Source: Alphaproteobacteria bacterium | GTDB lineage: Bacteria > Pseudomonadota > Alphaproteobacteria > UBA9219 | Direction: 5' to 3' | Length of the DNA stretch: 32,031 nucleotides | Assembly (NCBI GenBank): GCA_028866275.1 | Contig: JAGWIK010000022.1 | Span: 1 to 32,031 of the forward strand | Shown here: one piece after another, positions 8,163 to 25,832 of the stretch | Layout: each line of letters begins with the position of its first letter | How positions within the stretch are numbered: position 1 is the stretch's first letter | Notes under the pieces: model-generated | What the model was told of the DNA's origin: nothing | Seen by the model: only the letters and a program-made list of their open reading frames with translations | Databases searched by the model: none | Translations under genes and position numbers: made by a program

Positions 8163-10850
8163 ATGCCTATGTTAAGAGCCTTTTTCCGGAATTATTGCGG
8201 CGCACCCTGCCTTGCCGCGGTTTTTCTCGTGATGGCTGTCATGTGCCCGCAGACGGCGGCCGCGCAGGGCATGGGCATACCGCTAAGCCGCGACAGCCAG
8301 CTGGCTATCCTGTTTTCGGGGCTTCTGATCGGCGTTGTCGTCGCGGCCACGGCCTATCTGTTTTTCATCTGGGTTGTTATCCGCGATCGCGGGCAGGTGT
8401 TTCTTTTGCTGTTTCTTTTGTGCCTTGGCGTCAATATTTGCAGCACCAGCGATCTTCTGATGGGCCATATGGGCGTGCATTACGCGATGGCGCGCGCCTT
8501 CATCACCAACGCCAGCATTATCTTTTCCTGGGTTTTCGGCCTTTTCTTCAGCTATTATTTTCTCGAACTGGATGTCTACAACCCCGGCTATACGCTGCCT
8601 TTTGCCGCATTGGCTTTATTGCTGCTGCTGGCATTGATCTATTCGCTGATCGACATGACCACCATAGGCTTTATCATGCCGATACTGGGCACCGTTACCG
8701 TGTCCGCCATTCTGGTCGCCGGCCTTTCAGGTCTGCGCAACGACACCAGCGGCAGCCTTGTCCACCTTATCGCCTTCACCTGCTTTCTGGGCGGTATTCT
8801 GGCCGGCCCCGCCTATGTCATGGGTTATATTCCGGCCTTCAGCGCGTCGCATAACGTCGCCTATATCGCCTTTGCCCTGTCGGCCATGACCTTTGCCATC
8901 GTCGTCGCCAACCAGTTCGCGGCGCGGCAGGACGAAAAGGAAAAAGCTCTGGCCATCAGCAACGAACGTTTCGTACTGGCGACGCGCGGCGCCAACGAAG
9001 GCCTGTTCGACTGGAATATGGCGAATGGCGAAATCTTCTTTTCCGACCAGTTTCGCAAAATCATCGGCATCCGGCTCGGCAATGACGCCGCCGGATTGAA
9101 AAAATGGGTGCGCCTGATCCTGCCCGCCGACCGGCGTGTCGTGATCGACGCGCTGCGCCGGTTCCGCCGCAACGCCAAAACCAACACCCTGAACGTCGAA
9201 TACCGCATCGTGCAGCAAGACGGGGAACGCCGCTGGCTGCATTCCAAGGCCGTCGCGATGCGCGACGGGGCCACGCATCGCATGCTGCGCCTTGTCGGTT
9301 CGACCAGCGACATCACCGCGCGCAAGCAAAGCGAAGTCGCGCTGCGCGCCAGCGAAACCCGGTTCCGCAGCATTACCGAAGCGCATCCCGTGCCCGTGCT
9401 GATCGTCAGCCTGAACACCGGGTTCGTTCTTTACGCGACGCCGGGGGCAGAAAAATTCCTCAACGCCCTGCAGCAGGATCTAACCCAGCAAAATATCGCG
9501 CGGTTTCTGCCCGATCAGGACAAACGCACGGCCTTGTGGAAAGATATCGCCGCAGGACGCGCCGTCGATCTGCTCGAGGCCGATATCACCCGCAATGACG
9601 GCCTGCGCATCCCTGCCGCCATATCGGCGCGGCGCATCAATTACCAGAACGAAGACGCCATGGTGATGGGCCTGTACGATCTGACCGAACGCCAGAAAGC
9701 CCAGGCCCAGATCGCCCAACAGCAGGAAGCCCTGCAACAAAGCGAAAAAATGGCGGCGCTGGGCGGATTGCTGGCCGGCGTCGCGCACGAACTGAACAAC
9801 CCCCTGTCGGTTGTGGTCGGACAGGCGACGCTTTTGATGGAAGGATCGCCGGAACCAAAAGTCGCGACGCGCGCCGAAAAGATATTCAAGGCCGCCGACA
9901 GATGTTCGCGCATCGTCAAAAGTTTTCTGGCGCTGGCGCGGCGCAAACCGCCCGAACGCAAAGCGGTCGAATTGAACCAGATCGTGCGTTCGTCGCTGGA
10001 ACTGCTGGGGTATCAGGTCAAAACGGGCGAAATCGACCTGCAGACGGACATCGATCCGCAACTGCCCGACATCACCGGCGACGGCGACCAGCTTACCCAG
10101 GTCGTCACCAACCTCGCCCTCAACGCGATGCAGGCGATGGACGGGTGGAAACAATCCAAACGCCTGCATGTTTCAACACGGCACGACGACAAATTCGCCT
10201 ATCTTTCCGTCGCCGACAGCGGCCCCGGCATTCCGGCCGAAATCCGCAACCGCATCTTCGAGCCTTTCTTTACGACCAAAGGCAGCAAAGGCGGCACGGG
10301 CGTCGGGCTGGCGCTGTGCCTCAACATCGTGGCGTCGCATGACGGCGAACTGCTGCTGGCCGACACGCCGGGCGGCGGCGCGACCTTTACCGTGAAATTC
10401 CCCATTGGCACGGCCAAGGCGCCCACCGCCGCCACGACAGGCGACGACGGTGCCGTCGACCTGCCGAAAATCCGCCTGCTTCTGGTCGACGACGAGGTCG
10501 AAATCGCGCAAACGCTGGCCGATTTGATGGAACCTGAAGGGCATCATATCGACATCGCCGCCAATGGGGCCATCGCCATGGAAAAACTGCGTAAAAACAC
10601 CTACGATGCCGTCATCAGCGATTTGCGCATGCCGGTGATGGACGGCCCGGCCCTGTACGAAGCGTTGAAGCGTGAATTGCCTTCCTATCTGAACAGGATT
10701 ATCTATGTCACCGGCGACACCCTGTCGACCCACGTGCAGGAATTCCTGAAAAACTATCCCGTTCCCGTTGTTGAAAAACCCTATCGCCTTAAGGATATCC
10801 GCCGCGCCTTAAGCGACCTGCTCACCGCCGCGGCCCAGAAAACAGGATAG
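8163..10850 (+). CDS. Hybrid sensor histidine kinase: 7TM, two PAS, HisKA, HATPase, REC
   Basis: Membrane sensor of 895 residues. After a signal peptide (1-35, ending TAAAQG) come about seven hydrophobic helices (about 46-255) resembling a 7TMR-DISM or MHYT-like sensory bundle. PAS1 (about 266-385, ending in a LVGSTSDITARKQ PAC motif) and PAS2 (about 395-510) follow, then a Gln-rich coiled coil. His542 in GVAHELNNPL is the phospho-accepting HisKA site. The HATPase shows LNAMQAM (N box), DSGPGIP (G1) and GGTGVGLAL (G2). The C-terminal receiver domain starts RLLLVDDEVE and has phospho-acceptor Asp820 and Lys in EKPYR. All catalytic residues are present. The signal is unknown. It lies 3 bp upstream of a REC-EAL gene, its probable output partner. 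Confidence 0.92.
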   Translation: MPMLRAFFRNYCGAPCLAAVFLVMAVMCPQTAAAQGMGIPLSRDSQLAILFSGLLIGVVVAATAYLFFIWVVIRDRGQVFLLLFLLCLGVNICSTSDLLMGHMGVHYAMARAFITNASIIFSWVFGLFFSYYFLELDVYNPGYTLPFAALALLLLLALIYSLIDMTTIGFIMPILGTVTVSAILVAGLSGLRNDTSGSLVHLIAFTCFLGGILAGPAYVMGYIPAFSASHNVAYIAFALSAMTFAIVVANQFAARQDEKEKALAISNERFVLATRGANEGLFDWNMANGEIFFSDQFRKIIGIRLGNDAAGLKKWVRLILPADRRVVIDALRRFRRNAKTNTLNVEYRIVQQDGERRWLHSKAVAMRDGATHRMLRLVGSTSDITARKQSEVALRASETRFRSITEAHPVPVLIVSLNTGFVLYATPGAEKFLNALQQDLTQQNIARFLPDQDKRTALWKDIAAGRAVDLLEADITRNDGLRIPAAISARRINYQNEDAMVMGLYDLTERQKAQAQIAQQQEALQQSEKMAALGGLLAGVAHELNNPLSVVVGQATLLMEGSPEPKVATRAEKIFKAADRCSRIVKSFLALARRKPPERKAVELNQIVRSSLELLGYQVKTGEIDLQTDIDPQLPDITGDGDQLTQVVTNLALNAMQAMDGWKQSKRLHVSTRHDDKFAYLSVADSGPGIPAEIRNRIFEPFFTTKGSKGGTGVGLALCLNIVASHDGELLLADTPGGGATFTVKFPIGTAKAPTAATTGDDGAVDLPKIRLLLVDDEVEIAQTLADLMEPEGHHIDIAANGAIAMEKLRKNTYDAVISDLRMPVMDGPALYEALKRELPSYLNRIIYVTGDTLSTHVQEFLKNYPVPVVEKPYRLKDIRRALSDLLTAAAQKTG

Positions 10851-10853
10851 CCC

Positions 10854-11990
10854 ATGCGTTTGTTGATCATCGACGACGAAGAAGACATCTGCGATCTGGT
10901 CGCGGAAATCGGCGAACGCCGCGGGTTGGAGGCGCGCACCACCAGCGACGCCGAAAATGTCCAGCAAATCCTGGGCGATTTCACCCCCGACATCATCATG
11001 ATGGATTTGATGATGCCCGGCATTGACGGCGTCGAATTGCTGCGCCTTCTGTCCGAAAAGGCCAAAAACGCCAAATTATGCCTGATCAGCGGCAGCGACT
11101 CCCGCGTGTTGAACAGCGCCCGCCGCCTAGGCAGCGCGCACGGGCTGGACGTTGTCGCCGCGTTGGAAAAACCGTTAAGCATCCAGACGCTGAACGGATT
11201 TTTCGATTCCGTCACCAATACCAATATGCAGGCGCCCGATCACGCCGCCGCCATCGCTTCGGGCCAGTTCACCCTTCATTACCAGCCAGTCATCGAAATA
11301 GCGACGCGGCGCGTCAAGGGCGTCGAAGCGCTGGCGCGCTGGCAACATCCGGAACGCGGCCTGTTGTTGCCCGACGAGTTTCTGGAACAGGTTACCAATG
11401 ACGGGCTGATGCAGAACCTGACCGACTTTGTCATCCAAACGTCGGTGCGTCAGGCGGCGGCATGGAACCAGATGGGTGAAAAGATGACCCTGGCCATGAA
11501 TGTTACCGCGTCGACGTTGCTGGATCTGGCCCTGCCCGACAAAATCGCGGAGTTATGCAAACAACACGGCGTGCCGCCGGAAATGCTGATTCTGGAAGTC
11601 ACCGAAACCGAGGCGATGCGCGACGTCACCCGCACGATGGATGTGTTGCTGCGCATGCGTTTGCGCAATATCGGGGTTTCCATCGACGATTTCGGCACGG
11701 GCCATTCGTCGTTGCGCGAGCTGCAACGCATGCCGTTCAGCGAGATGAAAATCGACAAAAGCTTTGTCATCGATATGGCGCGCAGCAAGGATTCCACCGT
11801 GATCGTCAATTCCATCATCGATCTGGGTCATAATCTGGGGCTGAAAGTCATCGCCGAAGGCGTCGAGGACGCCCGCGCGTGGGAAATGCTGCATGAAAAA
11901 GGGTGCGATTTCGCCCAAGGTTTTTATATGGGCCGCCCGATGACATCGGCCGAATTTTCCATATGGCTGGATAACTGGCGAAAAATATAA
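10854..11990 (+). CDS. REC-EAL response regulator, c-di-GMP phosphodiesterase
   Basis: Response regulator of 378 residues that probably hydrolyses cyclic di-GMP. The receiver domain (1-120) has the acidic pair in IIDDEED, phospho-acceptor Asp51 in MMDLMMPG and a Lys in EKPLS. The EAL domain (about 128-375) retains the catalytic set: EALARW, the Asn of AMNVTAS, Glu of LEVTET, the loop-6 motif DDFGTGHSSL, Lys in MKIDKSF, IAEGVED and QGFYMGRPM. This argues for an active phosphodiesterase rather than a degenerate one. It starts 3 bp after the hybrid kinase stop, so the two form an operon and likely a phosphorelay that lowers c-di-GMP. It is convergent with the pilus cluster, a process often controlled by c-di-GMP. 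Confidence 0.92.
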   Translation: MRLLIIDDEEDICDLVAEIGERRGLEARTTSDAENVQQILGDFTPDIIMMDLMMPGIDGVELLRLLSEKAKNAKLCLISGSDSRVLNSARRLGSAHGLDVVAALEKPLSIQTLNGFFDSVTNTNMQAPDHAAAIASGQFTLHYQPVIEIATRRVKGVEALARWQHPERGLLLPDEFLEQVTNDGLMQNLTDFVIQTSVRQAAAWNQMGEKMTLAMNVTASTLLDLALPDKIAELCKQHGVPPEMLILEVTETEAMRDVTRTMDVLLRMRLRNIGVSIDDFGTGHSSLRELQRMPFSEMKIDKSFVIDMARSKDSTVIVNSIIDLGHNLGLKVIAEGVEDARAWEMLHEKGCDFAQGFYMGRPMTSAEFSIWLDNWRKI

Positions 11991-12056: not shown

Positions 12057-12749
12057 CTATTGGATGGCGAGGACTTGATAGTAGTAATACCCTTTGCTGG
12101 CGGTATCCGTATTGTAAACGCAGCCCGTGGCGACGCCCACCAGATTGACGCCGTCGGAGGCGACCGTCGGCCAGGCGGTCAAAGTCGGTGCGCTGGTACC
12201 GGCGTCAGCCTTCGAGGTAAAATCGCCAAGATCGGCGCCCGTCGTTGGCGCAACGTCGTAGCCGGTGCTGCGGTTGTTGATTTCGGCGCAAACCCCTTCG
12301 GATACGCGCAGGACGGCCAGAACTTCGGATGCGGAGGTTCCAAACCCCGCAACCGGCGTTATCGGATAATACCAGATATCGGTCTGTGGATCGTTGGCCA
12401 TACCGACCGAGGGGGCAGTCACGCCGCCGCCCGACGGCGAAAACAGCGCATTGGACAGATTGGTATTCGCCGCATTGATGTCGACAACGGTGGGGCCAGC
12501 CGTGCCGGTCGGGCTCATGCCGCCTTCCATCGTGATGCGATCCATGCCGACTTTCAGATTTTCACCGATCTGGATAAGGGCCGATGCCTTTGTTTTATCG
12601 CTTTCCTGCGACGTGCCGGAGGTGAAGCTGCCGCTGCCCGCCGCGATGGCGGCCGCCAAAATCGCCAGAATGGCGATGATGAACAGAATTGGACCAATGG
12701 CAATGCCCGCGTTCGCATCGAACCGCCGGTTCATTTTCTGCCCCATCAT
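12057..12749 (-). CDS. Pilin-like protein with atypical type III signal sequence
   Basis: Probable major pilin or pseudopilin of the adjacent machine, 230 residues. The N-terminus MMGQKMNRRFDANAG is followed by IAIGPILFIIAILAILAAAIAAG, a hydrophobic helix (about 16-38) as in type IV pilins. Cleavage after Gly15 would leave a mature protein with Pro, not Glu, at position 5, which is unusual for bacteria. The rest is a Gly/Thr/Ser/Ala-rich extracellular-type domain with Cys residues in EGVCAEINN and ATGCVYNT that could form a C-terminal disulfide loop. GGGAGAG lies about 7 bases before the ATG. It is the last gene of the cluster, separated from the other six by 170 bp, as expected for a separately and strongly expressed pilin. 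Assignment rests on N-terminal architecture and context. Confidence 0.65.
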   Translation of the reverse strand: MMGQKMNRRFDANAGIAIGPILFIIAILAILAAAIAAGSGSFTSGTSQESDKTKASALIQIGENLKVGMDRITMEGGMSPTGTAGPTVVDINAANTNLSNALFSPSGGGVTAPSVGMANDPQTDIWYYPITPVAGFGTSASEVLAVLRVSEGVCAEINNRSTGYDVAPTTGADLGDFTSKADAGTSAPTLTAWPTVASDGVNLVGVATGCVYNTDTASKGYYYYQVLAIQ

Positions 12750-12851
12750 GCTTGCTCTCCCGCTTTATAATTTTAATGCACAACCCCGGCGAGACGGGCC
12801 GGGACGGCTGAAAGGAAAGGGCGCGCGAATCTGCGAACCCCTAGCCTTATC

Positions 12852-12880
12852 CATACAGCATTTTTTCGTATGACGGTCAA
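12852..12880 (-). promoter_or_regulatory. Candidate promoter for the pilin-like gene
   Basis: On the minus strand TTGACC (12880-12875), a 17-base spacer and TGTATG (12857-12852) occur about 100 bases before the pilin-like ATG, in the only sizeable gap of the cluster. The -35 is good, the -10 weak. An internal promoter would allow more pilin than machine components. Confidence 0.3.
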
Positions 12881-12919
12881 GAAGTTGCCCTGTTTGGCGA
12901 CAAAAAACCGGCGGCCGAA

Positions 12920-13435
12920 TCACTGCTTGGGCGGCGGCAGGTTGAAAACGACTCGCTCCCCGGTCACTTCGGCCTTCATCAAATCCGATCCCGCACATTT
13001 GCCGACGCAAAAAAACCGCAGCCTCCATTGATATTCCGGCGACAGGGTATCGAGATAAGCCAGCGCGTTGACCCATTCGTGGAATTGCGCGCCGTCATCG
13101 GATTTGATGATAACGGCGGGCGTTCCGTCCAGATCGAATTTGATATCGGGAAATTGATGCTGCAGACGGGCGACGATATCGCGGCCTTCCTTAACGTTGA
13201 TCTTGTTTTTGACCTCTTCCGGCAAGACCGGCGCCGCGACAATGGCCGCATCGGCCTGTTTTTTGGCATCCACCGACGCGTGGACGGCCAGCGACGCCGC
13301 CACCAGCGTCACCAGGGCAACACCCCAGCAGACCCCGACCACAATGGCGGTCGATTTATCCAGTGCCATAAGCGCCTTGGCGATCAGCCGCGGCGTCACA
13401 ATTTTGATCAGAAGGGATGACGAAAGATTTTTCAT
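12920..13435 (-). CDS. Inner-membrane pilus assembly protein, GspM/PilO-like by inference
   Basis: Protein of 171 residues with a short cytoplasmic N-terminus, one transmembrane helix (about 29-51, TAIVVGVCWGVALVTLVAASLAV... in outline) and a periplasmic domain. The domain has a beta-alpha-beta pattern (GTPAVIIKSDDGAQFHEWVNAL then YQWRLRFFCVG in outline) that recalls the ferredoxin-like fold of GspM/PilO alignment-complex proteins, in which a helix ending W..AL is preceded by an IxxxSDD strand. Two cysteines (FFCVGKCAG) could form a disulfide. No family is recognised by sequence. The 4-bp overlap (ATGA) with the preceding GspL-like gene and position before the pilin support a structural role in the machine's inner-membrane platform. 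Confidence 0.6.
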   Translation of the reverse strand: MKNLSSSLLIKIVTPRLIAKALMALDKSTAIVVGVCWGVALVTLVAASLAVHASVDAKKQADAAIVAAPVLPEEVKNKINVKEGRDIVARLQHQFPDIKFDLDGTPAVIIKSDDGAQFHEWVNALAYLDTLSPEYQWRLRFFCVGKCAGSDLMKAEVTGERVVFNLPPPKQ

Positions 13436-14481
13436 TTCTTTGTCGCCTCATAGAGAATCTCGGCCTGATTGCCGATCACAACCCCTTGATCGTTGGCTTC
13501 GATATTTTTGCCGCCGATGGCGGTAATGCGGTCGGCCGTGGCGCTGGGCGGCACCTGGGCGCGCCACCGCGCCTGACCGTTGGTGATGCTGTAAACGTTC
13601 AAAAAGCCGTTGAGATCCAAAAGCCCGTCATTGACGTCGAGAAATTGGCGGATTTGTTCGCGCAAGGGGCTGCGCCGCAATTCTTCGGCCTGCGTCATCA
13701 ACCGCATCGATTTGTCGCGCGTGCTGTCCAGCGCGGCGGACAGATCGTGCCGCGCCGCCAGCAACGACATATTGGCCAACAGCCAGACGACAAAAGAAAA
13801 ACCGGCTACGGCCAGGGAAACCATCACCGACAAGGTCGCCAGAATGCGCCGCGCCCGGTCTTCGAACAGGGATACCGAATACCACGACACGGGCGTCAGC
13901 TGTTCGACGCGGTCGGGATCAAGGTTGACGATGGGGGCCTGTCCCAATTCGCGCGACGTCCGTTCGGCCTTGGCGCGCACGACCGGCGACGTGCCGCGAA
14001 AAACCTGCAGCCCGTCTTCCGTCACGATCATCAGCACGGCGATTTCCTCGCCGAAATAAGTATAACAAACCGGCAGAGGCGCCGCGTCCTTCATCGACGG
14101 CAGCAACGACGCCAGCGGGCACCATGAATTGGGCTGCGACGCCAGTTCCGACGACCGCACGGCCAGATACCAGATGCGGTTGCCAGAGGCCTGCCACACG
14201 ACATGCACGCGTTCGGTGTCGCAGGCTTCGGCGGCGGCGTTCCAGACGATTTCTTCTTCCTGTCCCGCAATGCGCGGGCATGTGCCGCCGATAACTTCGG
14301 GAGGAAAATAAAAATCGCCGACGCCGCCGATGTTTCCGAACAACGGCTTGATCAGCGCGCTTGACGACTCGGTGCCGGCCCCGGCATCGCCGTCATGGCG
14401 CGACACGGGGCCAAGATCGTCGAGATCGCCGGTCTTTTGCCCCGCAAGGCCGAGACTCTTGAGAAGGAGTTCAATGTTCAT
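13432..14481 (-). CDS. Bitopic inner-membrane pilus assembly protein, GspL-like topology
   Basis: Protein of 349 residues not recognised by sequence. A large N-terminal part (1-215) without signal peptide is followed by one transmembrane helix (about 217-240, around LATLSVMVSLAVAGFSFVVW) and a periplasmic part with an alpha-helical stretch (245-280) and a final beta-rich domain (285-345). This cytoplasm-TM-periplasm layout is that of GspL, or of a PilM-PilN fusion, which link the ATPase to the pseudopilus. Six cysteines in the N-domain (e.g. GGTCPRI, EACDTER, SWCPLA, VCYTYF) are unusual for GspL. Its ATG directly abuts the stop of the GspF-like gene and its stop overlaps the next gene by 4 bp. 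Function is inferred from topology and operon position. Confidence 0.55.
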   Translation of the reverse strand: MNIELLLKSLGLAGQKTGDLDDLGPVSRHDGDAGAGTESSSALIKPLFGNIGGVGDFYFPPEVIGGTCPRIAGQEEEIVWNAAAEACDTERVHVVWQASGNRIWYLAVRSSELASQPNSWCPLASLLPSMKDAAPLPVCYTYFGEEIAVLMIVTEDGLQVFRGTSPVVRAKAERTSRELGQAPIVNLDPDRVEQLTPVSWYSVSLFEDRARRILATLSVMVSLAVAGFSFVVWLLANMSLLAARHDLSAALDSTRDKSMRLMTQAEELRRSPLREQIRQFLDVNDGLLDLNGFLNVYSITNGQARWRAQVPPSATADRITAIGGKNIEANDQGVVIGNQAEILYEATKK

Positions 14482-15702
14482 TTACTGGGACCGCAGATTC
14501 TTCAGGCTGTCGAGGAAGCTGTCGTTTTGAATGAGCAACAGATAGATCATCGTCAAAATCGTCGCGCCAGCCAGAACCATCATCGTGACCATCCCCATGA
14601 TGGCCAGCCGCCGCTGATCCGACTTTGCCATAAGTCCGCGTTCTTCGGCAATCGCGGTGTAGACTTCGGCCAATTGATCGACCGACTGGATGGTTGCGAT
14701 CTGGTCGCGTTCGCCTTTTTGCAACGGCCAGCGCGCCAGCGCGCGCGACGGGTCGACGCCGGCCATCACGCGGCTTTTGCTTTCCGCCCAGTAAAGCCGG
14801 GTCGACGGTTCGTAAACCCCGTCGATAATAATGTCCAGGGCGTCGGCCAACGGCACTTTGCCGTCCAGCAACCGCTGCATCAGCTTGCAGGTTTCCTTCA
14901 TGCTGACATTGCGCAAATAGGATGAAACGATGGGCGCGCGCATCAGGAATTTCGACGTGAAATGGTCGGCGCGATGACGGTTGGCCCAATAAAGCGCCGC
15001 AAAAGTGACGCCGGACACGAGCAACAGCATGATAAAAACCAGCAGGCTGCCATTGATCCATGTCGCGATTTTAATGGCGTGGTCGAATTTTTCCGCCGCG
15101 TGCGGATCGCTGGACTTCGTTCCCTGGCTCTTCAGATAGGGGATAAAGCCGAATTGCGCGCCCCACACCGTGCCGACAATGTTCACGATATCGAAAGACA
15201 GCCAGCTGAGCGCGGTGACGATCACCTTCATACCTTTGCCTTTTTCTTCGGTATGTTCGATGGCGTGCTGGATCACGCCTTTCAGATCGCCGGCGCGTTC
15301 GCCCGCGGTGATAATCGCCATGGTGGCCGCGTCGAACAGGCGCAACGCGCGCAAGGCTTCGGAAAACGCGCCGCCGCCCTTCAACACCGTGCGCGTCGGC
15401 AAAAAGGCCATGCGGCGTTTGGGGTCGGTTTCGCCTTCGATGATATTTAAAAGCGCGGTGCCCGCCGACGCCGTCGCGCCCTGAAACCGCAAGGCGCGCA
15501 GCAACTGGATTTGCCACGCCCGCGACCGCACATCGGCCCATTCCAGCAGCGGCGGCCTTTGTTCGTGGATGCGTATGGGCCAGAACCCGTTATTGCGCAG
15601 CTGGCGGCGGACGGAATGTTGATCCGGAAGATAGAAATCTTCTTCCCTGATATCGATCATGCCGTGGCGGACTTCGGCATATTTGGCGTGGAACAGTTTC
15701 AT
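14482..15702 (-). CDS. Type IV pilus / type II secretion inner-membrane platform protein, GspF/PilR-like
   Basis: Polytopic platform protein of 406 residues on which the ATPase acts during pilus assembly. Two T2SF-type helical repeats are visible: about 65-165 (LRALRFQGATASAG through TAGERAGDLKGVIQHAIEH, a hallmark of the family) and about 270-370 (KETCKLMQRLLDGKVPLADAL onward). Hydrophobic segments lie near 160-185, 212-240 and 370-393, the usual three-helix pattern. The protein resembles the R64 thin-pilus PilR / BfpE branch more than PilC. The ATG overlaps the ATPase stop by 4 bp. Fixed position after the ATPase gene is typical of the family (GspE-GspF, PilQ-PilR). Confidence 0.85.
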   Translation of the reverse strand: MKLFHAKYAEVRHGMIDIREEDFYLPDQHSVRRQLRNNGFWPIRIHEQRPPLLEWADVRSRAWQIQLLRALRFQGATASAGTALLNIIEGETDPKRRMAFLPTRTVLKGGGAFSEALRALRLFDAATMAIITAGERAGDLKGVIQHAIEHTEEKGKGMKVIVTALSWLSFDIVNIVGTVWGAQFGFIPYLKSQGTKSSDPHAAEKFDHAIKIATWINGSLLVFIMLLLVSGVTFAALYWANRHRADHFTSKFLMRAPIVSSYLRNVSMKETCKLMQRLLDGKVPLADALDIIIDGVYEPSTRLYWAESKSRVMAGVDPSRALARWPLQKGERDQIATIQSVDQLAEVYTAIAEERGLMAKSDQRRLAIMGMVTMMVLAGATILTMIYLLLIQNDSFLDSLKNLRSQ

Positions 15703-17456
15703 CCCCTGCTCCCGTGGCCGGACGCCGCTTCTTCGATCAGCATCGACGCGCCCATATTGGCGTCGATGGCATTGCGGCGTATCAAATCGATGATCGACTG
15801 GCGGCGCGGCATATAGATGGTACCGGGCACGTCGACGACCGACGCGCTGACATTCGATACCATCATTTCCGTGATGGCGCGGCGGCTGGCCTGGTCTTCA
15901 GGCGGGAACATGGCCTCCAACGCCAGCGTACGGCCCAGAAAGCCGCTGTGATTGCATAAATCGCAGCCTTCGCGGCGCGCCAGCGCCAGCGGATCGTCTT
16001 TACCGATGCCGATATCCACGCAGCGTTCTTCGCTTTCGAACACCGCGGAGGCTTTTTCCACCCGGTGGCAGGCGGGGCACACTGTTTTGACAAGACGCTG
16101 CGACAGGCTGGCGATCAGGGCGTGGCCCAGAATGTACAAACCGCTGGTGCGGTAGGCGGAGCTGAGAAAGCCGTCGATACGGTCGAGCGTATGCAAGGCG
16201 TCGACGGCGTGAACCGTCGTGATAACGGTATGGCCTGATTCCGTCGCGCGCAGGGCCGCTTCGACCGTGTCGCCGTCGCGCATTTCGCCGACGATGATAA
16301 AATTGGGATCGTGACGCATCAGGGCGCGAATGATGTCGGCGATGTTATTGGCGGAATTGTCGGTGACCGAGGTTTGGTCGACCAGCGGCATGTCATATTC
16401 GACCGGCGCTTCGACCGAATAGACGGCCTTCAGCGAGCGGTCGATTTCCTGAATGATGCCGTAAAGCGTGGTCGATTTACCCGAACCGGTCGGGCCGCTG
16501 ACGATGATCAGGCCGCCTTCCTTGGAATCGGCGGTAATGGCTTTGCGCAATTTGCCGGCCACCACGGGCGCATGCAAAAACAATTCGTCGAAAGAACGCA
16601 AATTTTCGCGGTCGAGCAGACGAAGGGTCAGTTTTTCGCCCGACGGGGCCACCGGCAAGGCGGCGCAACGCACGTCGATCATGCGGCCCTGCCATTCGAA
16701 CGCCAGACGGCCGTCCTGGGGATGCTGGCGATCCGCCGCGTCCATCTTGGCGTCGGTCTTGATGCGGGTCACGATGGGGGCCATGACGCGGTGCGGCACC
16801 AGATGTTTGTAGACAAGGTCGCCGTCGACGCGATAGCGGATCCAGCAGCGCGCGTCGTCTTCCTGCAGCGTCAGATGAATATCCGACGTGCGGCTTTGCA
16901 AGGCTTCGGCCAGAATGTCGTGCACCGCCTGTTCGACCAGCATGGCATCGTCGGGATCGCGCGACAGCCCCGCCAGAATACGCAGCAACCGGTCGCCCGC
17001 CATTTCGCTTTGCTCGCGCATCAGGCGGCCCAGCTCGGCGCGGTCCCATGGCTCGGCCTCGATATTGGCGACATCGTGATTGGCGCGGGCCAGGGATTCG
17101 GAAATGCGCAGCAAATCGGCGTCGTCGACGCGGTCGCCCACAGCGATGCGCAAAGTTCCCTGACGCAGTTCCAGAAGGCAAACCCCCATCGCGGCCTGCA
17201 CGGCGGACGGCACGTAAAGACGCAGGGCCTGCATGGTCAGGTCTTCGTTCTTCTTGCCCCCCGATTTTTTGCGTTCGCGTTCGTTGCCGCCAGCCCCGAA
17301 ACCGTTGCGCCGCAGGATTTCATCGATCGACATGGCGCGTCCGTTGGCGCGGCGCATCGCCTGTTCGGCCAAGGCGAGTTCATAATGCCGCGGCTTGATA
17401 TGCAAAGCCTCGGCCTGTGCGCGCATCATGTCGGAGGTTGTGGTGATCTCGCTCAT
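15699..17456 (-). CDS. Pilus assembly / secretion ATPase, GspE/PilQ (R64-type)-like
   Basis: Hexameric cytoplasmic motor of 585 residues. The Walker A motif GPTGSGKST has Lys327; Asp-box residues lie in the segment between; Walker B VGEMRD has Glu391; the His box has His409 and His416 (GHTVITTVH). A zinc-binding loop has Cys460, Cys463, Cys498 and Cys501 (CPAC, CDLC), typical of assembly ATPases of the GspE/PilB class rather than retraction PilT. The N-terminal about 70 residues are basic and replace the usual MshEN domain in a reduced form. The central N2 domain contains RTSDIHL and WIRYRVDGDL. Ends overlap both neighbours by 4 bp. Retraction would require another ATPase elsewhere. Confidence 0.93.
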   Translation of the reverse strand: MSEITTTSDMMRAQAEALHIKPRHYELALAEQAMRRANGRAMSIDEILRRNGFGAGGNERERKKSGGKKNEDLTMQALRLYVPSAVQAAMGVCLLELRQGTLRIAVGDRVDDADLLRISESLARANHDVANIEAEPWDRAELGRLMREQSEMAGDRLLRILAGLSRDPDDAMLVEQAVHDILAEALQSRTSDIHLTLQEDDARCWIRYRVDGDLVYKHLVPHRVMAPIVTRIKTDAKMDAADRQHPQDGRLAFEWQGRMIDVRCAALPVAPSGEKLTLRLLDRENLRSFDELFLHAPVVAGKLRKAITADSKEGGLIIVSGPTGSGKSTTLYGIIQEIDRSLKAVYSVEAPVEYDMPLVDQTSVTDNSANNIADIIRALMRHDPNFIIVGEMRDGDTVEAALRATESGHTVITTVHAVDALHTLDRIDGFLSSAYRTSGLYILGHALIASLSQRLVKTVCPACHRVEKASAVFESEERCVDIGIGKDDPLALARREGCDLCNHSGFLGRTLALEAMFPPEDQASRRAITEMMVSNVSASVVDVPGTIYMPRRQSIIDLIRRNAIDANMGASMLIEEAASGHGSRG

Positions 17457-18730
17457 TTGACGCCCAGTTTAACCGATCGCGGGGCATTGCCCGAAGACAT
17501 TGCCGACCCGTTCGCAGCATTCTGGGCCGACGACGCGTCGGCTTGCGCCTGCTTGCGCGCAGCATCGACAAGCGACTGCGCCGCTTCCAGAAGAAGCTGC
17601 TTTTTCTTGCCGCCAATATCGACCGTCGCGGCGCGCGCGTTGACGGACAGCAGTTTGGCCTGCTTTGCCCCCAGATCGAATTCCCCGCCTGCCGGCACGA
17701 CGACCGTATCTCCGTCCGGTTTCAGCAAAACAGCGCGATCGCCGACGGTGCCGATAAGATGAAGGGTGCCGTTGTCGGCCGAGGCCGCGGCGGCGGCACT
17801 GCCCAGATCCGCGCTGGAAACCGGCGCAATCTTGCCGGCCATGGCTTTTTCCAGTTCCTGCGCCGAGGGCGGCGGCGGCACGCTGCCATTATTCTTGCCG
17901 CCCTTGTCGGCGACATCGGTCTTGTCGCCCTTGGCCTTGCCGCGAATGGGAATGACGACAAACCCTAACGGCCCGCTGTCGCGAATGATAAGATCCGTCG
18001 AGACGGGGCCTGCGTCTTTGGGTTCCCACAACAACGTCACCGGACAGGATGCGCCGGGCGCGAGTTCCATATTGACGGCGCAGCCTTGATCCAGCCGCTG
18101 CAGCCCGTTATCGGCTTCGATAACATCGATGGAATAAAGCGTGATCGGTTCGGCGCTGTTGTTGACCATCAGGGTAGAGCGCACGATTTTGCCGTCGCCC
18201 ACGGTGACGTCGCCGAAATCGATCGGTTTGATATCCTTGGTGTTGACCGTCAGGCCGGAATCCTTGTTGTCGGCGGCGGTCGAACCGGAGGTTTTACCGG
18301 ACAAATGCGCCCGCGCGATGCGCCCCGCGCCATTATGCGTCATCAGCACATCGACGTTCCACGGCCCGGGGCTGATGGGCGTCACCGAAACTTCGACGCT
18401 GCAACGGCTGGACGGCGCGATTTCGCCTTGCTTGCTGCAATCGTCGGCGGAAGCGGCGGCCGTCACGTTGGCGTCGCCGTTGACGGTGACTTTTTCGATC
18501 TTGACCGTCTGGTTGCTTTCATTGTCGAAAAATACCGAGGTGCGCTTGGCGACGCCGACCGTCGTTTCGCCGATATCGATATCCGGCTTGGGATCGACTT
18601 TGACCGCTTCGTCGCTCGCGCCCGACCCGCCGCCGGGCTGGACAAAGGCGGCATCGCGGGCCTGCGCGCCACAGACGGGCGCAGCGACCATGGATAAAAA
18701 CGCGAGGGCAAGAACAAGGCGGCGCGTCAC
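17453..18730 (-). CDS. Periplasmic pilus protein: two ASH/Ig-like domains plus PilP/GspC-like domain
   Basis: Exported protein of 425 residues. Signal peptide 1-25 ends GAQA. Two similar Ig-like beta-sandwich domains follow (about 50-143 and 163-268): each begins with an I.(I/F)G..TVG pattern and has a Cys pair (DDCSK...SRCSV; QGCAV...ASCPV) like ASH/choice-of-anchor domains. A Pro/Ser/Ala-rich linker leads to about 325-388, LHLIGTVGDRAVLLKPDGDT and following strands, which has the spacing of the PilP/GspC homology-region fold that contacts the secretin N-domains. The last 35 residues are low-complexity. It lies between secretin and ATPase genes with 4-bp overlaps at both ends. I infer that it bridges the secretin and the inner-membrane platform; the Ig-like extension is not a standard part of PilP or GspC. 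Confidence 0.7.
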   Translation of the reverse strand: MTRRLVLALAFLSMVAAPVCGAQARDAAFVQPGGGSGASDEAVKVDPKPDIDIGETTVGVAKRTSVFFDNESNQTVKIEKVTVNGDANVTAAASADDCSKQGEIAPSSRCSVEVSVTPISPGPWNVDVLMTHNGAGRIARAHLSGKTSGSTAADNKDSGLTVNTKDIKPIDFGDVTVGDGKIVRSTLMVNNSAEPITLYSIDVIEADNGLQRLDQGCAVNMELAPGASCPVTLLWEPKDAGPVSTDLIIRDSGPLGFVVIPIRGKAKGDKTDVADKGGKNNGSVPPPPSAQELEKAMAGKIAPVSSADLGSAAAAASADNGTLHLIGTVGDRAVLLKPDGDTVVVPAGGEFDLGAKQAKLLSVNARAATVDIGGKKKQLLLEAAQSLVDAARKQAQADASSAQNAANGSAMSSGNAPRSVKLGVK

Positions 18731-20562
18731 GGCGAGCCTCCATCGGCAGGCGTGCCGTCCGGCTTCAGGAGCTGGTTATAGGCGCGCGAGAAGCCGCGCT
18801 GCATCAGTTGCTGATCCACGGGGGCCTGATCTCCGCCGGACGCAGGCGGTTCGGGCACAGGCGCAGCATTGGGTTCGCTGGCCATAAGTTCGGGCGAAAG
18901 GCTTTGCGGCGCGGCCGATGCCGCGGCAACAGGAATAGCGCGGGCTTGCGGCAGGGCGAGTTTATGCGCACCACGCGCGTCGATCACCACGGCATCGGGC
19001 AAGGGTTCCGCATTTTGTTTTTTCTGGGCTTCTTCAGACGCTTTCTTGTCGGAAAACAGGACAATCGAGGGGCGAACGATAATGACAAGTTCGCGATTCT
19101 GGCGTTGGTTGTCGCCATACATCGGCACCGTGGCGTCGCCGACGGGCAACCCCTGCCCCGCGTCGGTATCGGACGACGCGACCAGCCCCGCCAGCAACAG
19201 GCTGTCGCCCGGGCGCACGCGCAGTACGGTGTTCATGGTTTCGTCGCTGGTTTGCGGCAGGTCGATGGTGCCGCCGGAACTCGAGGTCGGGTTGAGGCTG
19301 ACAAGGTTCTTGAGCGCGATGCCGAGATTGGCGAAAACGACGTCGTTTTCATAACTGCCCGCGACATTGATCGTCAGGCCGGTATCGATGCTGCTGGTGC
19401 TGACGGTGTTGTTGCTGGTGTTGGAATTGTTGCCGCTGCTGGTGCCGCTGACATTGCTGGCCAGCAGCGTGCCGACCTGCGAGATGTAATTGATCGTGCC
19501 GCCGACTTTAAGCTGCGCGCTGGTTCCGGACACAAAGGTAATTTGCGGGTTGCTGATGGTCTGGACGCGCCCCTTGGTCGCCAGAAAGCTCGCCACCGCA
19601 TTGGCGGAGATAATGCCGCTGGTGACGGCGCCGAGGCTCATGCTGCCCGTCGTCGACGCCAGCGAATCCAGCTGGCTGGCTCCCGACAGGGTCAGCCCCT
19701 TGGTGATGGTTGAATTGCTGAGCTGGCTCCAGTTGATGCCTTCGGCATTTTCGCTGTTAAGCGTGACTTCCCAGATATACATCTGCAAAACGACCAGAGG
19801 GCGTCCGGTGCGCAATTGCGACAGATACTGGCTGACGCGGTCTTCGCCGTCCACCGTCGTGGTATAGACGATATCGCCGCCCTGCTGATCGACTTGGGCC
19901 TTGCCTTCGCCGATCAGGCTGTTGATAGCTTCGACCATGCTGTTGGAACCGGCGTCGCTGAAAGTCGCGGCGCCCGAAGAACCGGAACTGCTCGAACTGC
20001 CGCTGTTGCTGCTGCTATTGCTGCTGGAGCTGGTCGAGGCCGTAGAAGCGCTGGCTATTTTGGCCACCGGCGGCAGCGCGACGACAAAAGTTTCTTTTTC
20101 CGACAGGTTGATCGAGCCGTGGCGATAATCGCAGAACACTTCGGCGGCATCGCATATTTTTTCGACGACCTGCGGCAATGGGCCGCTGAGATTCATCACC
20201 GTGACCAGCCGCGAGCCCAAAGCCCCCGTGTTCCATGACAACGACACGTCCGTGCCCGCCAAGACCGCCTGCAACGCCGCGGTAATCGGCACGGCGTTAA
20301 GATTGGTGGTGGGGATGATGATGTTGCCGGGCAATTGCTGATTGTCCGACAACCGATGTTCATGCAACGTGGAATCGAGATCGAGCGTCACGATAGCGGG
20401 ATCGCCATCGCCGCGCACGGTTTCGTCTTTATCGGGAACTTCGGCAACCGTCGGGTTGCGGCCCGTGGTGGATTTGGCTTCGGGAATATCCAGATCGGCG
20501 CAGGCAGCGACCCCCAGCACAACCGCCAGAATCATCAGGGATTTAATAACGACTTTCGCCAC
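18727..20562 (-). CDS. Outer-membrane secretin, lipoprotein, type IVb pilus PilN-like
   Basis: Forms the outer-membrane channel of the pilus or secretion machine. I choose the GTG at 20562 because GGAAGGA lies about 9 bases before it and the product then begins VAKVVIKSLMILAVVLGVAAC, a lipoprotein signal with the lipobox Cys at residue 21; an upstream ATG (20631) would bury the signal. The 611-residue protein has an STN/N0-like domain (about 70-165), a Ser/Gly/Asn-rich linker (about 170-205), an N-domain (210-290) with GRPLVVLQMYIWEV, and the C-terminal secretin domain (about 325-500) with SNPQITFVSG and RVRPGDSLLLAGLV. A Pro/Ala-rich tail follows. The lipoprotein start and layout match R64 PilN / BfpB secretins. 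It is the first gene of the cluster. Confidence 0.9.
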   Translation of the reverse strand: MAKVVIKSLMILAVVLGVAACADLDIPEAKSTTGRNPTVAEVPDKDETVRGDGDPAIVTLDLDSTLHEHRLSDNQQLPGNIIIPTTNLNAVPITAALQAVLAGTDVSLSWNTGALGSRLVTVMNLSGPLPQVVEKICDAAEVFCDYRHGSINLSEKETFVVALPPVAKIASASTASTSSSSNSSSNSGSSSSSGSSGAATFSDAGSNSMVEAINSLIGEGKAQVDQQGGDIVYTTTVDGEDRVSQYLSQLRTGRPLVVLQMYIWEVTLNSENAEGINWSQLSNSTITKGLTLSGASQLDSLASTTGSMSLGAVTSGIISANAVASFLATKGRVQTISNPQITFVSGTSAQLKVGGTINYISQVGTLLASNVSGTSSGNNSNTSNNTVSTSSIDTGLTINVAGSYENDVVFANLGIALKNLVSLNPTSSSGGTIDLPQTSDETMNTVLRVRPGDSLLLAGLVASSDTDAGQGLPVGDATVPMYGDNQRQNRELVIIVRPSIVLFSDKKASEEAQKKQNAEPLPDAVVIDARGAHKLALPQARAIPVAAASAAPQSLSPELMASEPNAAPVPEPPASGGDQAPVDQQLMQRGFSRAYNQLLKPDGTPADGGSP

Positions 20563-20852
20563 GCGTTGGATTCCTTCCAGCGACAAAAAACACGCGCCCG
20601 AATCCAACTTTAAACTTGGTTTCAGCCGCATTAACTAATTTGCGAAATTCAGGTTTATTTTTGGTTAACTTGTTTAAACATCTGGAGATTGTTTCGGCTT
20701 CGGATCAAAGCATGCAAAATTTTGTTAACCCGTATTTAAGTAAAAAAAATTATAGTAAGAAAACAGAGATTGAGATTCGCCGCGAGACTGAATGCCCCAA
20801 GTGAGTTGATATCCATTGTCAGGGACGTTTTTTAAGAGGAGACAATATTATT
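20563..20852. other. AT-rich divergent intergenic region of the pilus operon
   Basis: This 290-bp stretch separates the secretin gene (minus) from the unknown gene at 20853 (plus). It is clearly more AT-rich than the flanking genes and holds several TTAA boxes, a CAAAATTTTG palindrome (20715-20724), the near-palindrome CCAACTTTAAACTTGG (20604-20619) and a TTAA-N7-TTAA site listed separately. A 62-codon open frame (20616-20804) has no ribosome site or family features and is not called. I take the stretch to be a bidirectional promoter. Confidence 0.6.
20725..20739. promoter_or_regulatory. CtrA-type binding site (TTAA-N7-TTAA)
   Basis: TTAACCCGTATTTAA matches exactly the full CtrA consensus of two TTAA boxes with a 7-base spacer. 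It lies 163 bp before the secretin start and 114 bp before the divergent gene. CtrA controls flagella, pili and cell-cycle genes in Alphaproteobacteria. The AT-rich setting raises the chance of a random match. Confidence 0.45.
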
Positions 20853-22480: not shown

Positions 22481-24001
22481 TCAGAACGACAATTCCGCCG
22501 CCGCCTTTTCCAGAGTCGCAAGACTGCCGATTTCATAAAGCGAAGCCAGATGTTTGGCCAGCGGCTTGGTCAATCGTTCGTCATGCCGCAAATCGCCGAA
22601 CAACTGGTCGATCGACAGCAAGGGCATGGGGTCGGAACCGCCCTCGATCGCTTTTGCTTTCAGCAAATCCGCCAAGGGATGGCGAACCTTGAATGCGGCG
22701 CCTTTTTCGTCGACGCCGCGCGCGCGCCGCAGCCACCCCGCCAAGGCCAGCGACAGCAGATCGACGCTCTGCCCCGCCTTGAGCCGGTCGCCGATGGATG
22801 CCAGAACAGTGTTCAGCGGCGCGTCGGTCGCGACCCGTTCGACCGTATCCTTGATGGCGGGATTGGCAAAACGCGCAATCAGCTTTTTCTTGTAAGCAGG
22901 CAAATCGATGCCGGGCACGGGGGCCAAGGTCGGGCCGGTTTCGCGATCCATCAACGCGGCCATGAAGCGCTGGAACAGCGGATTGGCCATCGTTTCGTCG
23001 ATCGTGACGTAACCCGCCATATCGCCAAGGCAGGCGATGGCCGAATGGCTGGCGTTCAGCAGGCGCAGCTTCATCACTTCATAGGGAGTCACGTCGGGCA
23101 CGAATTGCGCGCCGACTTTTTCCCATGCCGGGCGGCCGGCCACGAATTTGTCTTCGATCACCCATTGCGTGAAGGATTCGCACACGACCGGCCATTCGTC
23201 GGCCAGCCCGTATTGCGTTTCCAGATAGGCGATGTCCTGAGGTTTGGTCACCGGCGTGATGCGGTCGACCATCGTGTTGGGAAAAGACGCGTTCTTTTCG
23301 ATCCACGACGCCAGCGCCGGTTCCTGCATCGCGGCCAGCGTCAGCACCGCTTCGCGCAGAACATTGCCGTTATGCTGGATGTTATCACAGCTGAGCGCGG
23401 TAAAAGCGGGGGCGTTGCCGTCGCGGCGGCGGCGATAGGCTTCGACGATGACGCCGATAGCGCTGCGCGGGTTCGATGGCGTCGCCAGATCCTGTTTGAT
23501 CGACGGATGTTCGGGGTCGAGTTTTTTCGTCACGCCGTTCAGGCAGTACCCGTTTTCCGTCACCGTCAGGCTGACGATCTTCGTCGATGCCCTGCCGATG
23601 GCGTCCAACGCCGCCGCCGTGCTTTCTCCGGCGAAAATAATTTCCTTGATCGCGCCGATGACGGCGACATTTTCTTCGTCGCCTTCGCGGTCGACCAGCG
23701 TATACAGGCAATCCTGCGGCTGCAGGCTGTCCTGCATTTTCCTGTCGCCGGGCAAAAGGCCGACGCCGGCGATGCCCCATGCGCGCGCGGCGGCAAAATC
23801 CGCCTGCATCAGGTCATGCGTATAGCGCGCCATATGGGCGCGATGAAACCCACCCAGCCCCAGATGCACGATGCCGCTTTCGATCGCCGCGCGGTCATAG
23901 GCGGGACGTTTTACCCGAACGTCGATTTGGGGCAGGTTGCCTTGAGTCAATTTGACCGCGCTGTCTTTCAGCGCGACTGAGGCGTTGCGGGGTGCGTTCA
24001 T
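22481..24001 (-). CDS. Mannitol dehydrogenase / fructuronate reductase family protein
   Basis: NAD-dependent polyol or uronate oxidoreductase of 506 residues. The N-terminal Rossmann part has IVHLGLGGFHRAHMARYTHDLM in outline, with the family's GxGxFHRAH cofactor motif; VTENGYCL and SCDNIQHNG follow as substrate-side signatures. The catalytic signature KLRLLNASHS carries Lys, Asn and His at the family spacing, and the C-terminal helical domain (about 285-500) is complete. I choose the ATG at 24001 because CAGGAG lies 7 bases before it. The family includes mannitol 2-dehydrogenase, D-arabinitol dehydrogenase and UxuB; the substrate cannot be fixed. It is 138 bp downstream of a diverged paralog on the same strand. 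Confidence 0.85.
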   Translation of the reverse strand: MNAPRNASVALKDSAVKLTQGNLPQIDVRVKRPAYDRAAIESGIVHLGLGGFHRAHMARYTHDLMQADFAAARAWGIAGVGLLPGDRKMQDSLQPQDCLYTLVDREGDEENVAVIGAIKEIIFAGESTAAALDAIGRASTKIVSLTVTENGYCLNGVTKKLDPEHPSIKQDLATPSNPRSAIGVIVEAYRRRRDGNAPAFTALSCDNIQHNGNVLREAVLTLAAMQEPALASWIEKNASFPNTMVDRITPVTKPQDIAYLETQYGLADEWPVVCESFTQWVIEDKFVAGRPAWEKVGAQFVPDVTPYEVMKLRLLNASHSAIACLGDMAGYVTIDETMANPLFQRFMAALMDRETGPTLAPVPGIDLPAYKKKLIARFANPAIKDTVERVATDAPLNTVLASIGDRLKAGQSVDLLSLALAGWLRRARGVDEKGAAFKVRHPLADLLKAKAIEGGSDPMPLLSIDQLFGDLRHDERLTKPLAKHLASLYEIGSLATLEKAAAELSF

Positions 24002-24076
24002 AAGAGAACTCCTGTGATAAAGGAACGGGCATTTCCGGTTTTGCAGCGACACTAATCCCGTCCCCGTCCCGCCGTC

Positions 24077-24108
24077 CAGAGGGATTTTATCCCCCTGAAC
24101 GGTTCAGG
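24077..24108. promoter_or_regulatory. Two overlapping inverted repeats between dehydrogenase paralogs
   Basis: CCTGAAC-G-GTTCAGG (24094-24108) is a perfect 7-bp inverted repeat with a 1-base centre. It overlaps by 4 bases a second inverted repeat (24077-24085 with 24089-24097, one mismatch, TTT loop). Both lie upstream of the paralog starting at 24001. They could be an operator for a sugar-acid repressor, or alternative hairpins in the mRNA. Confidence 0.45.
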
Positions 24109-24139
24109 ACAGGCTGTTACGGGTAAGAGACGCTGGATA

Positions 24140-25705: not shown

Positions 25706-25832
25706 AATAGACCTCTTAAAAATGATGGAAGCAAAATTCGTTTTTGCCATGGGCGGGAATATATTAACCGCCCACCTCCCTGTCCATCACATTCAATAGT
25801 TTCACCGCGAACACTATCAATATGGTTAATGT

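Follow-up and report, generated by a model that had tools for sequence, protein, structure and literature searches.

Type IV filament systems of the T4b class were delimited, in the available part of the survey by Denise et al. 2019 (PMC6668835), by pilA, pilB, pilC and pilQ genes lying together with pilD anywhere in the genome, and the same part describes mannose-sensitive haemagglutinin (MSH) loci as lacking a peptidase. The glutamate at position 5 of mature pilins (Glu5) was termed invariant and required for efficient assembly in the passages available from PMC5207764, while in those available from PMC10191384 minor pilins are always present in known filaments and the subunit that caps tip complexes lacks Glu5. 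Here we describe a seven-gene operon in a stretch of 32,031 bases (the window), which is the entire contig C17 of a 2.19-Mb, 78-contig alphaproteobacterial genome. We infer its function: the seven genes likely specify a conserved machine that assembles a T4b-like contact pilus, with subunits packing in the absence of the Glu5 charge pair. New here are the Glu5-less pilins, the co-occurrence of machine and pilin in 14 genomes and the adjacency of the operon to vir genes; the lack of Glu5 and the link to type IV secretion loci were absent from an earlier, sequence-only reading of this DNA.

The seven genes, all on the minus strand, ran from 20631 (probable start 20562) down to 12057 in the order secretin, ASH/PilP-like protein, GspE-type ATPase, GspF, L (GspL/BfpC-like), M (GspM-like) and prepilin, where the sequence-only reading had placed them, and with matches to the Pfam Secretin, T2SSE, T2SSF and ASH families. 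The prepilin (12057..12749) is expected to be cleaved between DANAG and IAIGPILF, giving proline at mature position +5 and no Glu5. The typical site in the family reads DANAG followed by IAIGPILFIIAILAILAAAIAAGSGSF. Glu5 was lacking from all 58 readable pilin N-termini, a count that omits two fragments without an N-terminus; the first acidic residue stood at +22 or later, and residue +5 was P in 34, L in nine, Y in four, M and A in three each, T in two, and F, V and S in one each. Automatic placement put Glu in the first 12 residues of none of 52 pilin rows. In controls read the same way E. coli GspG, H, I, J and PpdD had Glu5 and GspK lacked it, an R64-type PilV was without Glu5, and an R64-type PilS had Glu at about +6. 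A scan of the window for Glu5-type prepilins returned none but a single match at 31066, in an unrelated frame of the plus strand.

In Pfam the window pilin had a sole, sub-threshold match, to the archaeal Pilin_N family (E 0.062). Its structural model (pLDDT 79.8, pTM 0.70) gave a modest match to the enterotoxigenic E. coli (ETEC) T4b pilus (9iuf; Z 6.6, 4.0 A over 154), followed by C. difficile PilA1 (Z 6.2), TcpA (Z 5.5) and the T4a pilin 1ay2 (Z 2.8). Neither this operon nor a major pilin without Glu5 was the subject of any paper found in a literature search by titles and starts of abstracts; type 4 pili are mentioned in deep Rickettsiales in text passages, without figures or supplements, of PMC9352585 and PMC10847448.

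All seven genes were present in the same order and on one strand in 17 of 20 loci fetched from the window's own taxonomic order, as read from clustering of open frames, with one gene cut by a contig end or split in each of L073, L081 and L082. The remaining three were L077 and L083, cut by contig ends without contradicting the arrangement, and L078, in which no pilin adjoined M. Identity to the window among these loci was 69-86% for the ATPase, 55-80% for GspF, 42-64% for L, 28-53% for M and 40-67% for full-length pilins. Because 17 of the 20 loci keep the seven genes, the arrangement is beyond chance and the set is not degenerate; its recurrence here and in other families shows a gene order that is not idiosyncratic, which the sequence-only reading had not recognised. 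A profile of L matched 28 of 33 genomes of the order, and two of the five L-less genomes (G001 and G012) retained a fragment of the ATPase orthologue. Flanks differed among the loci, and therefore nothing constantly attached to the operon was seen, eight neighbour clusters having been scanned (an epimerase, two squalene/phytoene synthases, an amine oxidase, COX1, a PDZ protease, an FAD flavoprotein and QPRTase) and the remainder judged by eye.

When named genomes were scanned with the GspF profile, 25 loci came up, every one titled as a metagenome-assembled genome, of which 15 were 'Alphaproteobacteria bacterium' and the rest Rhodospirillales/Rhodospirillaceae, Micavibrio, Rickettsiales, (uncultured) proteobacterium and one Bacteroidia. 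A broader L profile matched 15 of 385 genomes of the class, of which ten belonged to six families beyond the order, including two weak matches (G545, E 3e-10; G562, 3.4e-4), and a narrower one matched 2 of 398 in a phylum sample, both from the window's order. The pilin profile also matched 15 of the same 385 genomes. Both profiles matched together in 14 genomes of eight families, the unshared ones being G545 (L only) and G608 (pilin only, at 4.8e-4); the hypergeometric value of 1.6e-23 ignores relatedness, which inflates the significance. Outside the order, all seven genes were found in sequence in L135, L137, L140 and L165, from other alphaproteobacterial families. Six genes without an adjacent pilin were found in L164 and L167, the former having two pilins 2.7 kb downstream. 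L166 had a 164-aa frame without a match at the PilP-like position and its contig ends after M with no pilin before that end, while L148 (L, M and two pilins) and L168 (L and M) were cut by contig ends. Rhodoferax ferrireducens T118 and Methylibium petroleiphilum PM1, both Betaproteobacteria, each carry the first six genes in order on a plasmid typed as conjugative. These plasmids were the only 2 records matched by the Rhodoferax L among 72,556 plasmid records; the window L had only one match to plasmids, at E 0.7.

Within the operon, 4-bp overlaps were found at the secretin/PilP-like, PilP-like/ATPase, ATPase/GspF and L/M junctions, GspF and L abutted, and a 170-bp gap separated M from the pilin gene, in agreement with the five overlapping or abutting junctions of the sequence-only reading. 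The secretin (18727..20631, its true start probably the GTG at 20562) carried a lipobox (...VLGVAAC) and matched PF00263 (4.5e-14); its best NCBIfam model was MshL (100 bits, cut-off 250), then PilN (67 bits, cut-off 288). Lipoboxes were present in 19 of the 21 secretins listed, 12 by pattern and seven by eye, the two others (L064 and L082) being frames without an N-terminus. The periplasmic ASH/PilP-like protein (17453..18730; PF15780 2.3e-12, NF012200 4.4e-15) comprised two ASH, or choice-of-anchor-D, stretches and a C-terminal PilP/GspC-HR-like stretch, the C-terminus showing a weak likeness to an R64-type PilP (hhalign prob 5.8%, E 0.0066). The GspE/PilB-type assembly ATPase (15699..17456; PF00437, T2SSE, 8.6e-80) scored 246 bits against the GspE equivalog model (cut-off 630), and all 30 family ATPases inspected had Walker A and 28 of them CxxC-x-CxxC, the exceptions being the two plasmid ATPases. 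The GspF/PilC-type platform protein (14482..15702) matched PF00482 (T2SSF, 1.1e-15). L (13432..14481) was classed as GspL/BfpC/PilO2-like by its predicted fold, an actin-like cytoplasmic domain, a membrane helix and a ferredoxin-like periplasmic domain. The small M (12920..13435) was classed as GspM-like by size, position and one membrane stretch seen by eye, and carries two nearly invariant cysteines (C143 and C147). Neither L nor M matched a Pfam family up to E 0.1 or had a credible NCBIfam match, and searches of PDB sequences with L, M, pilin and PilP-like profiles gave nothing below E 0.15.

No well-known family with the same gene order was found, the nearest equals being the unnamed operons on the two plasmids. 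These share the order secretin-hypothetical-ATPase-GspF-L-M and have L, M and pilin homologues, but their ATPase is 33% identical to that of the window and lacks the CxxC pair motif, their frames at the PilP position are shorter (239 and 219 aa) and outside the window PilP-like cluster, and the pilin follows a peptidyl-prolyl isomerase (Rhodoferax) or lies upstream of the secretin (Methylibium). The Rhodoferax operon (L022 3833-5248, 12308-13132) has a second secretin-domain gene upstream and the isomerase inside. The R64-type thin pilus of Serratia plasmid p87710 (L149) has a PilN-type secretin, PilO2, PilP, PilQ, PilR, PilS and a peptidase as shared parts, but its order, PilN-O2-P-ATPase-F-pilin-lytic transglycosylase-peptidase-PilV, is unlike that of the window, as the sequence-only reading had stated for R64; its PilS also differs by the Glu near +6 and its ATPase by falling outside the window clade. 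The PilN-O-P-Q-R-S-T-U-V order with PAP_PilO (PF06864) was likewise not found in the window.

The bundle-forming (BFP), toxin-coregulated (TCP) and longus/CFA-III T4b pili resemble the window system in a BfpC-like L fold and, more weakly, in a T4b-like pilin fold, and differ in that window pilins lack Glu5 and the window locus holds no peptidase. Their secretins are lipoproteins, as in the window. The type II secretion system (T2SS) shares GspD/E/F/L/M-like parts, but scores were far below the equivalog cut-offs and no GspG-K-like genes were found among locus frames. Likeness to the MSH (MSHA) pilus lay in the MshL-like secretin and the locus without a peptidase; the c-di-GMP-binding N-domain of MshE was not found in the window ATPase among 15 Pfam families or the best 25 of 26 NCBIfam matches, unlike the ATPase on source-genome contig C38, which has it. 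All five gene kinds named by Denise et al. were present, with the peptidase on other contigs (by Pfam rather than the HMMs of those authors), and by fold L is a GspL/BfpC/PilO2-type membrane protein in place of PilM-N-O. As regards T4a features, no PilM-N-O-P genes were named in the locus, and a PilT-family pair lies on contig C11, with orthologues behind the operon in L067. The sequence-only reading was right in recognising a type IV filament machine with T4b/GspL-type parts. Because Glu5 is lacking and the ATPase may or may not branch with those of T4b pili, we regard the system as working like a T4b pilus without filing it in the T4b class; it is a new variant within the type IV filament superfamily.

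Parts that the sequence-only reading had found missing were located elsewhere: its statement that peptidase, minor pilin and PilT are absent holds for the locus and fails for the genome, and its suggestion that a peptidase is supplied from outside was borne out by three A24 peptidases on other contigs. On contig C9 a second Glu5-less pilin (L018 9396-10043) adjoins a short A24 peptidase (C9:60979-61302), which has 177 aa from its likely start and is therefore too short for an added methylase domain. An A24 match lay within about 1 kb of the pilin N-terminal match in all five genomes of the order in the pilin-profile sample (G000, G003, G013, G023 and G024, by coordinates, the sequence of the G013 pair being unread). 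An alignment spanning 193 columns (prob 99.2, E 1.3e-19) joined the C9-type pilin class (eight sequences, one close copy omitted) to the second pilin that the operon has in other families (five sequences, from L135, L137, L140, L148 and L165, a further L135 pilin omitted); with the window pilin the class had only 44 N-terminal columns in common. A second pilin is present in this genome too, as minor pilins are in known filaments. In L164 C9-like pilins and a C9-like peptidase lie downstream of the operon. L137 and L165 each have a divergent A24 gene beside the operon; that these two A24 genes belong to Tad loci was rejected, the next genes being CoA-transferases. Homologues of the peptidase and second pilin adjoin the operon in other lineages. 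We read C9:60.9-62.0 kb as a putative split-off remainder of the window machine; the pair could instead serve an R64-like machine elsewhere on C9. The PilT-family pair on C11 has orthologues (75% and 69% identical) directly after the pilin gene and on the same strand in L067 (3150-5256), and a search with the C11 pair found no further close copies in the other fetched loci. The 'non-retractile pilus' of the sequence-only reading was dropped because of these L067 orthologues, and a retraction motor for this pilus is possible.

Other filament and secretion genes of the source genome were noted. Contig C38 (L015) encodes an MSH/T4a-like ATPase with the c-di-GMP-binding domain, an MshL-like secretin and two Glu5 prepilins, and C28 (L016) a putative Tad locus (secretin, ATPase and A24). 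Contig C9 carries a DotB-like ATPase (410 bits, cut-off 463), DotD and T4SS_TraI genes (C9:1-9000, L021; C9:15000-34900, L017) and an R64-like set TcpQ-PilN-PilO-(PilP position)-PilQ-PilR, and so holds an I-type secretion/thin-pilus locus in what is apparently an alphaproteobacterium.

In five fetched loci (the window, L064, L065, L066 and L082) two genes are convergent to the operon, one for a PAS histidine kinase-receiver protein and one for a receiver-EAL protein (window 8163-11990); a hybrid kinase lies beside the operon in L140. These kinase-receiver and receiver-EAL genes are possible regulators of the operon. Two tandem mannitol dehydrogenase-family genes lie at 22481-25750. An Rfam scan of the window, including the 170-bp gap before the pilin, gave no match, and a regulatory RNA or terminator in that gap was rejected since folding was no better than in shuffles (z 0.75). 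One promoter-like site was found in the 1-kb stretch scanned, against 0.6 expected.

The operon was found directly behind virB8-virB9 in two families (f192 and f107), and in four families, these plus f117 and f206, it had virB10, a virB11-type gene and virD4 as neighbours. In L166 (f192) VirB8 (1.6e-23) and VirB9/CagX (3.7e-27) are followed by secretin, ATPase, GspF, L and M, the longest secretin frame overlapping virB9 by 14 bases; in L143, from the same genome, pilins are followed by a VirB10 homologue. L135 (f192) runs from a VirB8 fragment and VirB9/CagX (5.1e-26) through secretin, PilP-like protein, ATPase, GspF, L and M to three pilins, VirB10/TrbI (1.8e-43) and a 336-aa T2SSE-family ATPase, termed VirB11-type by size and place, with a GspE-type gene on the other strand and VirD4 (2.8e-53) further on. 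In L167 (f107) VirB8, VirB9, secretin, a weak PilP-like match, ATPase, GspF, L and M are faced by VirD4, VirB11-type and VirB10 genes. L148 (f117) holds L, M, two pilins, VirB10, VirB11-type and VirD4, and in L168 (f206) L and M face VirD4, VirB11-type and VirB10 genes. Weak HYDIN or DUF1573 Ig-like matches, the same domain kind as in the window PilP-like protein, were seen in VirB10/TrbI at L135 6760-8277 and L168 1987-3726. VirB8, B9, B10 and D4 were not found in six f209 loci or L164, in stretches of 20 kb or less each. A VirD4-type family exceeded its cut-off in 16 of 33 genomes of the order; the source-genome match (21.7 bits, cut-off 20.1), an 845-aa frame, was provisionally taken as FtsK-like.

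Among other explanations, an R64/IncI-family thin pilus whose genes have been rearranged would fit the lipoprotein secretin, the PilP-like stretch, the PilO2-like fold and the plasmid copies in Betaproteobacteria. The ATPase tree argued otherwise: the window family formed one clade (92/97, just below the program's firm-support mark), apart with moderate support from R64-type PilQ, GspE and HofB, and the R64-type PilQ joined the source-genome C9 PilQ outside it (100/98), both on long branches. The tree had 24 rows, comprising 10 of the 21 ATPases of the order, two betaproteobacterial and three other alphaproteobacterial ones, own paralogues, one R64-type PilQ, E. coli GspE, HofB and the second L135 ATPase, and was built without BFP, TCP and MSH ATPases and L164-L167. 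L also had no PF06864 match, whereas the C9 PilO did, and the locus lacks a lytic transglycosylase, peptidase and PilV; with tree, PF06864 and gene order against it, R64 membership was rejected as very improbable. A T2SS-like piston, a short periplasmic filament pushing folded exoproteins through the secretin, drew on the ATPase and platform scoring best against GspE and GspF models, the GspL-like layout of L, the GspM-like size and position of M and Glu5-less subunits reminiscent of GspK. L, modelled with AF2 from 21 sequences (pLDDT 79.5, pTM 0.48), folds like PilO2 and BfpC, being nearer in VIA-align to PilO2Bp (Z 10.5, 3.3 A over 138) and BfpC (Z 8.9, 3.8 A over 136) than to EpsL (Z 6.8), with the PulL cytoplasmic domain and FtsA level at Z 6.9; its periplasmic end matched the PulL C-ter at Z 5.8 (2.3 A over 64 residues). 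The M profile reached only hhalign prob 2.5% against E. coli GspM, and L and M profiles against single E. coli GspL, GspM and R64-type or own PilO were uninformative, single-sequence templates being weak and showing no absence. No GspG-K-like genes accompany the operon and no shared exoprotein neighbour was seen, the eight scanned clusters being metabolic or protease genes, so that a piston seems unlikely.

We also doubt a reading in which another locus supplies a Glu5 pilin as the true major subunit, leaving the window pilin to act only at the tip, as GspK or PilV does. Known Glu5-less subunits are described at the tip in the available passages of PMC5207764 and PMC10191384, an R64-type PilV lacks Glu5 as well, and divergent Glu5-type pilin genes, identified by sequence pattern, lie by the operon at L068 16341-16997 and L071 14011-14562. 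Such a neighbour was seen in only 2 of 20 loci of the order (by one pattern), however; genome G516 (10% contamination) had seven pilin-profile matches, and two Glu5-less classes recur after M in L135, L137, L140, L148 and L165. Several points do weigh against a contact pilus built of Glu5-less subunits. The divergent Glu5-type genes, which come from one genus, and the two Glu5-type prepilins on C38 make a borrowed Glu5 subunit possible. The cleavage-site pattern was derived from N-termini already seen, so that 58 of 58 is no blind count, and the pilins were mostly gathered with a family-seeded profile, five second pilins being found by position. The pilin fold match is modest, with nothing significant in Foldseek (best E 0.3), and Foldseek gave no match for L at E <=0.001, the best being EpsL (E 0.010). 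The PilT-family genes after the L067 pilin, in one of 20 loci of the order, speak against a purely extending pilus; VirB8, B9, B10 and D4 were found in none of the fetched stretches of the 21 loci of the order, window included; and the filament itself is a prediction.

In the assembly that we favour, prepilins would lodge in the inner membrane, and an A24 peptidase would cleave them behind the conserved Gly; the short enzyme at C9:60979-61302 is the likeliest candidate. The ATPase, acting via L and the GspF platform, would push pilins out, and M and the PilP-like protein would connect to the lipoprotein secretin as the filament's outer-membrane passage. The window pilin would make up the filament, and the C9 pilin would contribute a minor or tip subunit. 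Since both lack Glu5, docking must bypass the usual salt bridge between Glu5 and the N-terminal amine, probably by hydrophobic packing. The PilT-family pair on C11 may act as retraction motor, none being encoded in the locus itself. As a surface or contact pilus it would likely serve to attach cells to one another, in several relatives together with a type IV secretion system (T4SS) or conjugation machine.

Because Vir genes lie beside the operon in some families and were found in none of the stretches fetched from the window's order, the T4SS partnership belongs to some lineages and is putative for the window. We tentatively suggest, as a possibility short of even odds, that the system is a separate class of filament, with Glu5-less pilins, which belongs physically, now or in origin, to T4SS machines, with the T4b-like pilus replacing the VirB2 pilus as the target-reaching organ, and that the window's order keeps the pilus without the secretion genes. 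With a conserved machine whose pilins, so far as they were read, are all Glu5-less, the question of what drives subunit docking becomes directly testable, and vir-type loci in which the operon is nested provide a natural experiment on T4SS target contact via a different kind of pilus.

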